Below, in pieces: positions 572 to 6,568 of a stretch of 58,412 nucleotides of DNA; the stretch's first letter is position 1, and each line of letters begins with the position of its first letter. Origin of the DNA: an uncultured Actinomycetes bacterium. GTDB lineage: Bacteria; Actinomycetota; Actinomycetes; Nanopelagicales; Nanopelagicaceae. The notes under the pieces were generated by a model that was given only the letters and a program-made list of their open reading frames with translations, was not told the DNA's origin and ran no database searches. The stretch spans positions 1-58,412 of the forward strand of contig CAIQNN010000050.1 in NCBI GenBank assembly GCA_903873185.1, in the 5' to 3' direction. Both the position numbers and the translations under genes were made by a program.

Positions 572-607
572 TGGAGCGGGTGACCGGGATCGAACCGGCA
601 TGGCCAG
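572..607. repeat. 36-bp direct repeat, left copy (att-like)
   Basis: Identical to 2268-2303 in the same orientation. The two copies bracket about 1.66 kb holding four genes and no recognisable integrase. Confidence 0.75.
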
Positions 608-634
608 ATTAAAAGGCTGGCGTTCTATGGCATC
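572..634 (-). pseudogene. Partial tRNA-Gly copy (attachment-site-like)
   Basis: On the minus strand this is the 3' half of a tRNA-Gly, including the T arm, the acceptor 3' strand and CCA. Bases 572-607 are identical over 36 bp to 2268-2303 of the intact tRNA-Gly. Beyond base 607 similarity decays: the anticodon loop reads CTTTTAA instead of CTTCCAA, the anticodon stem has a mismatch and no 5' acceptor strand exists. It cannot fold as a tRNA and is best read as the duplicated attachment site left by integration into the tRNA 3' end. Confidence 0.7.
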
Positions 635-672: not shown

Positions 673-705
673 GTAACTAGATTGTTACAGTAACCGTATG
701 GTTAC
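673..705 (+). promoter_or_regulatory. Two tandem ArsR-type operators over the arsR start
   Basis: Two 16-bp inverted repeats of the form GTAAC-N6-GTTAC lie 1 bp apart: GTAACTAGATTGTTAC at 673-688 and GTAACCGTATGGTTAC at 690-705. The second contains the ATG at 698 and the putative -10 box TACAGT (686-691). A dimer bound here would block both promoter and start, so negative autoregulation by the adjacent ArsR protein is the natural inference. Confidence 0.7.
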
Positions 706-1024
706 CGATCCAGTCAGAGATCCATTTGAGGCGCTCGGTGATCCGAATCGTCGTGAAATTCTCCGACTTCTAAGCCACGGAGAAAAGTCAGTGACGGATC
801 TCGCGGCAGCTATGCCCATAAGCAGACCTGCTGTCTCCCGTCACCTAAGGCTTCTCAAGGAGGCAAAGCTAGTGACTGAACAAGCCGAAGGGACTCGACG
901 GATCTACAGACTTCACGAACAGGGACTAGAGGCGGTACGCGAATACCTCGACCGCGTGTGGAGCGAAGCATCAGTACGGTTTTCACTTTTTGCCAATAAT
1001 TCACAAGTGAAAATTGACGAATGA
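698..1024 (+). CDS. ArsR-family winged-helix regulator
   Basis: This 108-residue protein is a small winged-helix regulator. It has the N-terminal pattern DPFEALGDPNRREILRLL followed by a helix-turn-helix (AAMPISRPAVSRHLRLLKEA, about residues 37-56) and a beta wing ending GTRRIYRL. No metal-binding CxC pair is seen, so it is the type usually paired with SRPBCC/AHSA1 genes rather than an arsenic sensor. There is no Shine-Dalgarno sequence. TACAGT lies 6 nt before the ATG, suggesting a leaderless mRNA, and two operator palindromes cover the start. It overlaps the next gene by 4 bp and heads a four-gene operon between tRNA-Gly repeats. The inducing signal is unknown. Confidence 0.88.
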   Translation: MVTDPVRDPFEALGDPNRREILRLLSHGEKSVTDLAAAMPISRPAVSRHLRLLKEAKLVTEQAEGTRRIYRLHEQGLEAVREYLDRVWSEASVRFSLFANNSQVKIDE

Positions 1025-2267: not shown

Positions 2268-2303
2268 TGGAGCGGGTGACCGGGATCGAACCGGCATGGC
2301 CAG
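2268..2303. repeat. 36-bp direct repeat, right copy (in tRNA-Gly 3' end)
   Basis: This is the tRNA-Gly 3' end, T arm and part of the anticodon stem, identical to 572-607. It marks the tRNA-side boundary of the ArsR cassette. Confidence 0.75.
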
Positions 2304-2341
2304 CTTGGAAGGCTGGGGCTCTACCATTGAGCTACACCCGC
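2268..2341 (-). tRNA. tRNA-Gly (anticodon TCC)
   Basis: On the minus strand the acceptor GCGGGTG pairs with CACCCGC, the D arm reads TAGCTCAATGGTAGAGC, the anticodon stem CCAGC/GCTGG encloses loop CTTCCAA (anticodon TCC), and the T arm CCGGTTCGATCCCGG is followed by discriminator T and an encoded CCA. Its 3' end is duplicated at 572-607, so it appears to have served as an integration target. Confidence 0.95.
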
Positions 2342-3893: not shown

Positions 3894-3901
3894 CCACTTC
3901 T

Positions 3902-5308: not shown

Positions 5309-6568
5309 GTGACTAAGAAAAAGGCCTTCGATAGTACGGTCTTTCACCACCAAGGTTTCTGGCAGTTATGGGTCTCTGGACTGCTGATTGTTGTTGGTTA
5401 TCAAGCTTTTCCAGTCGCCTTGGCCGTAACCGTTTTAGATGCGGGCGGTAGCGCTTCAACTCTAGGTTCAATCTTGGCAGCGCGAGTTTTCTCTTCAGTT
5501 CTTTTGGTTTTAGCCGGTGGTGTCTGGGCAGATCGATTGCCGCAGAAATTTGTAATGATCTTCGCCGATGTTTTGCGCGGCTTACTTACGCTGGCGATTG
5601 TTTTTGCCTCTGTTGCACATGCACGTGCCTGGGTGTTGGCAGTGATTATTTTTATCATGGGCGCTGGCGAAGCGCTTGGTGCGCCGGCTTCAAATTCAAT
5701 CTTGCCTTCAATTTTGCCCGCCGAGAAGCTTCCTGCAGGAAATGCGCTTCGAAGTGTCACCGGTCGAACTGGCTCCATCGTTGGTCCCGCGATTGGTGGG
5801 TTATTGGTGGCGACACTGGGCAGCAAATTAACCTTCGTCTTTGTTGCTGGAATGTTCTTTGTCGGAACTTCACTTTTGTTGGGCATAAAAAGTCCGCCGA
5901 AAGTTTTCAATGAAAATCGGCCGACCTTCCGCCACGAAATCAAAGAGGGCTTAAAAGCGGTTTGGAATATGCCTTGGGTCTTTTGGATTATTTTGATTGC
6001 CGCACTTCAGTTAGCGGTCGTGGTCGGAGTTGAAACGGTTCTGCTCCCGGTTATTACTCGTCGTGAATTTCATGGCAACGGCGTATTTGCGGCATCTACC
6101 GCCATGTTTAGCTTGGGTGGTGTTATCACCGCGATCTGGTTTGCCAGGTATAAAGCGAAGAAGCCAGGATTGCTATCTATTATTTCTTGGATCTTCTTTG
6201 CAGCAGCACCGCTTGCGCTGGCTTTTCCGATTTCCCCATTGTTTGTAATTGGCTGCTATTTCGTGGCGGGTCTAGCAACTGAACCTTTTGGTGTCTATTG
6301 GTCCACGGCGCTGCAACGGGAAATCCCAAATGAGATGTTGGGACGTGTCTCCAGCGTGGATTACATGGGTTCGCTGGCTTTGCTTCCAGTGGGAATGGCC
6401 CTGGCTGGCCCAGTCACCAGTTTGGTGGGGGAGCGGCCGTACTTAATCGGAGCTACCGTATTTCATATTGTTCTCTGTTTCGTGATGTTGGCGATTCCTG
6501 GGGCGGTCTACTTTGCGACGCCCAAAAAAGGGAATTCGCCTATAAGCGAACAGGGAAAGGTGCAATAA
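5309..6568 (+). CDS. MFS transporter (MFS_3 / EntS-like)
   Basis: A 419-residue membrane protein with about 12 hydrophobic segments. It starts with QGFWQLWVSGLLIVVGYQA and carries the loop 2-3 motif GVWADRLPQKFVM typical of major facilitator exporters. The profile matches the MFS_3 group (enterobactin-exporter-like), which exports small molecules; the substrate is unknown. Two tandem GTG codons exist at 5306 and 5309. The second is chosen because TAGCCT lies 6 nt upstream and no ribosome binding site is present. It is inserted between clpP2 and clpX, which are usually adjacent in Actinobacteria, so it may have been acquired here; nothing links its function to proteolysis. Confidence 0.85.
   Translation: MTKKKAFDSTVFHHQGFWQLWVSGLLIVVGYQAFPVALAVTVLDAGGSASTLGSILAARVFSSVLLVLAGGVWADRLPQKFVMIFADVLRGLLTLAIVFASVAHARAWVLAVIIFIMGAGEALGAPASNSILPSILPAEKLPAGNALRSVTGRTGSIVGPAIGGLLVATLGSKLTFVFVAGMFFVGTSLLLGIKSPPKVFNENRPTFRHEIKEGLKAVWNMPWVFWIILIAALQLAVVVGVETVLLPVITRREFHGNGVFAASTAMFSLGGVITAIWFARYKAKKPGLLSIISWIFFAAAPLALAFPISPLFVIGCYFVAGLATEPFGVYWSTALQREIPNEMLGRVSSVDYMGSLALLPVGMALAGPVTSLVGERPYLIGATVFHIVLCFVMLAIPGAVYFATPKKGNSPISEQGKVQ

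Follow-up and report, generated by a model that had tools for sequence, protein, structure and literature searches.

The DNA at positions 673–705 of the window (the whole stretch analysed, 58,412 nucleotides from an uncultured member of the Nanopelagicaceae) is very probably a tandem autorepressor operator for the arsR-AHSA1-DUF6855-ORF4 operon, an assignment based on the sequence itself, its conservation, the way in which it tracks the front of the operon, and its covariation with the recognition helix of the adjacent ArsR. In the mechanism that we propose, two ArsR dimers would occupy adjacent GTAAC-N6-GTTAC sites with centres 17 bp apart, and the bound pair would span the promoter, beginning immediately behind the -35 element and running through the -10 element to the start codon. 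RNA polymerase would thereby be blocked and the operon shut off, until ArsR is released by a signal, probably not a metal.

The initial annotation had described two 16-bp palindromes with the same half-sites, 17 bp apart centre to centre, the second including the arsR ATG, and this description is correct. Site 1, GTAACtagattGTTAC, lies at 673–688 and site 2, GTAACcgtatgGTTAC, at 690–705, both on the forward strand and both exact matches to GTAAC-N6-GTTAC; the single base A689 separates them, and the ATG (698–700) falls within site 2. The exact motif occurs in two copies in the 1.63-Mb genome (G000), namely these two, and the expectation from base composition is 1.5 exact single sites and, for pairs spaced exactly 17 bp, 1.4e-6. 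At one mismatch there are 13 more sites in the genome; with the reversed pattern as a control and up to one mismatch allowed, 70 sites were found. A two-mismatch scan of the window alone gave 15 sites against 11.6 expected, which is not above chance, for which reason a single degenerate match is not counted as evidence. The proposal that the half-site would offer a searchable motif for a wider regulon was not supported, as the whole-genome search of G000 returned no exact site beyond 673–705; exact single sites elsewhere in the genomes of orthologues are few and look like chance occurrences (L063, L074).

The arsR gene (698–1024, forward strand) encodes a 108-residue winged-helix protein of the ArsR family, and ATG 698 is its only plausible start, because reading upstream in frame meets TAA at 674–676 before any other start codon. 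No Shine-Dalgarno-like stretch was seen ahead of this ATG on reading the sequence. A consensus scan listed no sigma-70 promoter here, and the two elements considered were read by eye on the forward strand: a putative -35 element, TTGTTC (663–668), followed after 17 bp by a putative -10 element, TACAGT (686–691), which is embedded in the operator as GT(TACaGT)AAC and has the form TAnnnT, ending six bases before the ATG. With this 17-bp spacer, the pair would plausibly place the start of transcription at ATG 698, and the arsR mRNA is probably leaderless, in which case the second site would double as the beginning of the coding sequence. The TTG is kept at the -35 offset in five of the nine orthologous promoters examined, with CTGACA in one more (L022), and TACnGT is kept in 14/14 aligned operators. 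The same 14 operators are almost invariant in their half-sites and variable at most N6 positions.

A search for related loci retrieved 18, among them eight (L016–L023) with an ArsR 58–95% identical to that of the window and one (L024) at 56%. The tandem is present in the same 17-bp register in eight operons with ArsR proteins 58–95% identical (five exact, two with one mismatch and one with two), which come from varied Actinomycetota and from one Dormiibacterota record. It is found on the retrieved locus itself in L016, L019, L020 and L021 (exact), L018 and L023 (one mismatch) and L022 (two mismatches). Locus L017 extends 88 bases ahead of the match and its arsR is cut by the contig end, and L061, from the same genome (G306), has an exact tandem just upstream of the start of a near-identical arsR. 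L024 has GTAAG-N6-CTTAC instead, the nine loci L025–L033 (29–39% identity) have neither GTAAC nor GTTAC in the 300 bp upstream, and two members of the window's own clade, L172 and L142, have one recognisable site, not two. Conservation of the half-sites in orthologous cassettes, on which the initial annotation had made its reading depend, is thus what the comparison of upstream regions reveals. The attribution of the operators to the adjacent ArsR is likewise supported by the conservation of half-sites and spacing in orthologous operons, together with the plausible leaderless promoter that the sites cover.

Across 298 genomes of the order of L016, allowing up to two mismatches, three tandems were found (G305, G308 and G575), all at this operon. 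In G575 (L077) the genes run ORF4-DUF6855-arsR-AHSA1, with the operator ahead of ORF4; in both L018 and L022 it stands before an unlabelled ORF, SRPBCC-like by eye, that itself lies ahead of arsR. The tandem therefore heads the operon in three gene orders (arsR first, SRPBCC-type gene first, and ORF4-DUF6855-arsR-AHSA1), indicating that the operator follows the front of the operon and not arsR as such. The four-gene set is complete in L016, L017, L019, L020 and L077. Exact tandem 33-mers also occur in two viral contigs, at 1334–1366 of L034, where the two sites have the same sequence (GTAACCGTATCGTTAC) and are immediately followed by an ATG at 1367, and at 3896–3928 of L035; neither contig was found to encode a relative of any of the four cassette proteins.

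The architecture of the operator was compared over a broader survey of homologues, comprising 124 frames and 122 distinct proteins, with a palindrome called in 83 and none in 39. Apart from five that were placed by hand (L016, L018, L022, L023 and L077), the palindromes were called with no constraint on their bases. The recognition helix of the window ArsR reads S42-R43-P44-A45-V46-S47-R48-H49-L50, and homologues were grouped by the residue at position 48. A second site (scoring at least 8 of 10, sought at 10–30 bp) accompanies the palindrome in 18 of the 28 R/K48 proteins and 36 of the 55 Q/L48 proteins, always at a spacing of 16 bp (9 cases) or 17 bp (45 cases). These data bear on the definition of the binding unit. 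The half-sites in the window are also symmetric about position 689, with the inner ones as conserved as the outer ones, and the unit could then be the inner palindrome GTTAC-A-GTAAC (684–694), or a single 33-bp symmetric site, in place of two N6 palindromes. We consider this improbable, since in four Streptomyces-like loci (L094, L103, L135 and L138) the central base is dropped, giving a spacing of 16 with the 5-N6-5 units unchanged, and since in many homologues a clear 5-N6-5 site is accompanied by a degenerate one. Half-sites with centres 6 bp apart would leave too little room for both recognition helices of a single dimer. The footprinted site of Mycobacterium tuberculosis Rv2034 is one 5-N6-5 unit (PMC3338718).

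The sequence of the half-site was found to vary with that of the recognition helix. Base 5 is C in all 28 proteins with R or K at position 48, and G in all 55 with Q or L (83/83 together). Likewise, R43 goes with G at base 1 in 77/78 cases (the exception is L189) and Q43 with A in 3/3, a total of 80/81 for R and Q; among other residues, F occurs with A once and V with T once. All four pairings of R and Q at the two positions occur, namely R43/R48 with GTAAC, R43/Q48 with GTAAG, Q43/R48 with ATAAC (L144) and Q43/Q48 with ATAAG (L161). In control windows of the same loci (n = 952) a palindrome was called in 194 (20%), none of which begin with GTAA, and base 5 agrees in 69/194; some of the calls of odd sequence may be chance matches. 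With columns 43, 44 and 48 left out of the tree, the class of residue 48 changes four times and base 5 changes four times (an earlier 46-row tree needed two). There are four independent pairs on all branches and two on starred ones, both concordant; a sign test is not significant and cannot reach 0.05. The sequences suggest that two residues of the recognition helix set two letters of the operator, with about four changes on the tree underlying the correlation. For base 3, residue 44 alone was ruled out as the explanation, as L151 and L160 have P44 and T3; S44 goes with T3 in the 3/3 proteins that have a palindrome (L008, L010 and L091).

The centre of the tandem overlaps the putative -10 element, and its conservation could be partly driven by the promoter; the sites might even serve another regulator, or be a conserved promoter element unrelated to ArsR. 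This is very unlikely, because the half-site varies at bases 5 and 1 along with residues 48 and 43 of the ArsR encoded next to it, and because no tandem lies outside this operon in the genomes scanned. A further role of the operators at the mRNA level, as a hairpin covering the start codon, is hardly credible: an RNA hairpin can arise from palindromic DNA, and in some orthologues a leader lies downstream of the operator, but most of the operator would be untranscribed if transcription starts at or near 698, and the fixed N6 spacing and the covariation with the protein helix point to recognition as DNA.

Recognition of the tandem by ArsR as DNA would also constrain the protein that it regulates wherever the start codon lies inside the operator. 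An in-frame start within the operator is present in 46/55 Q/L48 homologues, which form a Rv2034-like sister class, and in 8/28 R/K48 homologues, counting any in-frame ATG, GTG or TTG, some of which are not true starts (e.g. L016 and L167). Among the Q-class genes with the start at offset 20 or 21 (n = 42), codon 3 is NCT in 38/42 and codon 4 is TAC in 32/42, and T is the third base in 3.5% of the 1127 NCN codons of the same genes (p = 8e-51, a value that ignores kinship). NCT is thus kept where the operator needs CTTAC and otherwise avoided, which argues that the operator fixes the first codons in the Rv2034-like class. The initial annotation had made this claim for the window, and it stands mainly for the sister class (38/42 against 3.5%); in the window's own GTAAC clade the operator-embedded start is common only to the window and its nearest relative, L021, and the other orthologues of this clade have leaders, or a start just downstream of the operator.

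On balance, we favour the view that a large subfamily of actinomycetotal ArsR proteins uses twin 5-N6-5 operators at 16 or 17 bp, the second often lying in a leaderless start whose first codons it fixes, with a two-residue code in which residue 43 would specify base 1 and residue 48 base 5. Neither the twin register nor the recognition code was reported in the literature searched, which covered few subscription papers, and the twin layout with its embedded start is not described in the papers searched; operators of this autoregulatory kind are already known. If the view is right, the operators of small ArsR repressors with unknown ligands would be predictable from sequence, and with a code of two residues and two bases their targets could be deduced and then checked by single swaps. 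There would also be a measured example of a regulator whose N-terminal codons are dictated by its own DNA site, which a leaderless gene makes possible.

Downstream of arsR, and on the same strand, the operon continues with an AHSA1/SRPBCC-domain gene (1021–1482; PF08327, E = 6.5e-12), which overlaps arsR by 4 nt, a DUF6855 gene (1479–1883; PF21619, E = 1.1e-67), which overlaps the AHSA1 gene by 4 nt, and ORF4 (1883–2179, 98 residues), which shares one base with the DUF6855 gene and is kept in the cassette, with tblastn identities of 48–76% in five of six orthologous loci tested. The ORF4 model (pLDDT 69) has neighbours of the ABM type, the best with E = 3.5e-3, a lead that points with modest confidence to a ferredoxin-like (ABM-type) fold, and for the DUF6855 model (pLDDT 74) no PDB match was better than E = 2.5. 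The AHSA1/SRPBCC protein and the possibly ABM-like ORF4 suggest that the operon may act in small-molecule binding or modification. DUF6855 is 74–79% identical to its counterparts in four Acidimicrobiales operons, slightly above the value for its ArsR and well above that for the AHSA1 neighbour. Within 296 genomes of the window's family it was found only in the window's own, and none was confirmed in viral contigs. Its level of identity and its absence from the 295 other family genomes suggest horizontal transfer and strong constraint.

The cassette is flanked by an intact tRNA-Gly(TCC) on the right (2268–2341, reverse strand) and by a 91% identical copy of its 3' 56 nt on the left (572–627, reverse strand), an arrangement suggestive of an islet integrated at a tRNA gene. 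A single tRNA-Gly copy was found in 13/13 tested tig-linked loci of relatives, which extend only about 1.2 kb or less beyond it. In a set of 296 genomes from the order, G275 is the only one other than the window's with an ArsR at 95% identity. Within the islet itself, no ORF for an integrase was noticed. The end of a collagen-like repeat protein (1–537) lies directly upstream of it; L011 has a gene of the same collagen-like type in the same place (5328–6470), and the same partial tRNA-Gly copy ahead of arsR (6476–6532).

The protein belongs clearly to the ArsR family, with 56.8 bits to PF01022 (cut-off 22; E = 2e-15) and 89.3 bits to NF033788 (cut-off 55). It resembles the SdpR-type autorepressors (NF033789) in being small and of autorepressor type, but the match is partial, at 66.5 bits against a curated cut-off of 100, and membership of that family is not supported. 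With the metal sensors SmtB and CzrA it has in common the family domain and the register of the recognition helix, residues 43 and 48 aligning with the corresponding stretch of SmtB. The CzrA residues matching these positions touch DNA, and the operators of SmtB and CzrA are built as short inverted repeats. It differs from these sensors in its lower similarity (2.4e-10 for SmtB) and in containing no cysteine, which excludes a cysteine alpha3N metal site; the alpha5 ligands also look absent by eye.

The closest known case is Rv2034, likewise an ArsR winged helix at the head of an operon that includes an SRPBCC-type gene. That operon, Rv2034-2036, contains a polyketide-cyclase-domain gene, and Rv2034 represses its own transcription (PMC3338718). 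Its operator reads GTAAG-TCTAAA-CTTAC followed by GGTTCGTG, with protection from -30 to +3 (PMC3338718). Both have a 5-N6-5 palindrome over the promoter and reaching the start codon, footprinted for Rv2034 and predicted for the window, whereas the half-site is GTAAG in Rv2034 and GTAAC in the window, and one palindrome is reported for Rv2034 (PMC3338718). The window operon differs further in carrying DUF6855 and ORF4. Rv2034-like homologues have the same layout and, at a spacing of 16 or 17 bp, a second site that is more degenerate, commonly reading GTTCG-N6-CTTAC; the window shares with this class both the 5-N6-5 palindrome over promoter and start and the SRPBCC-type gene, here AHSA1.
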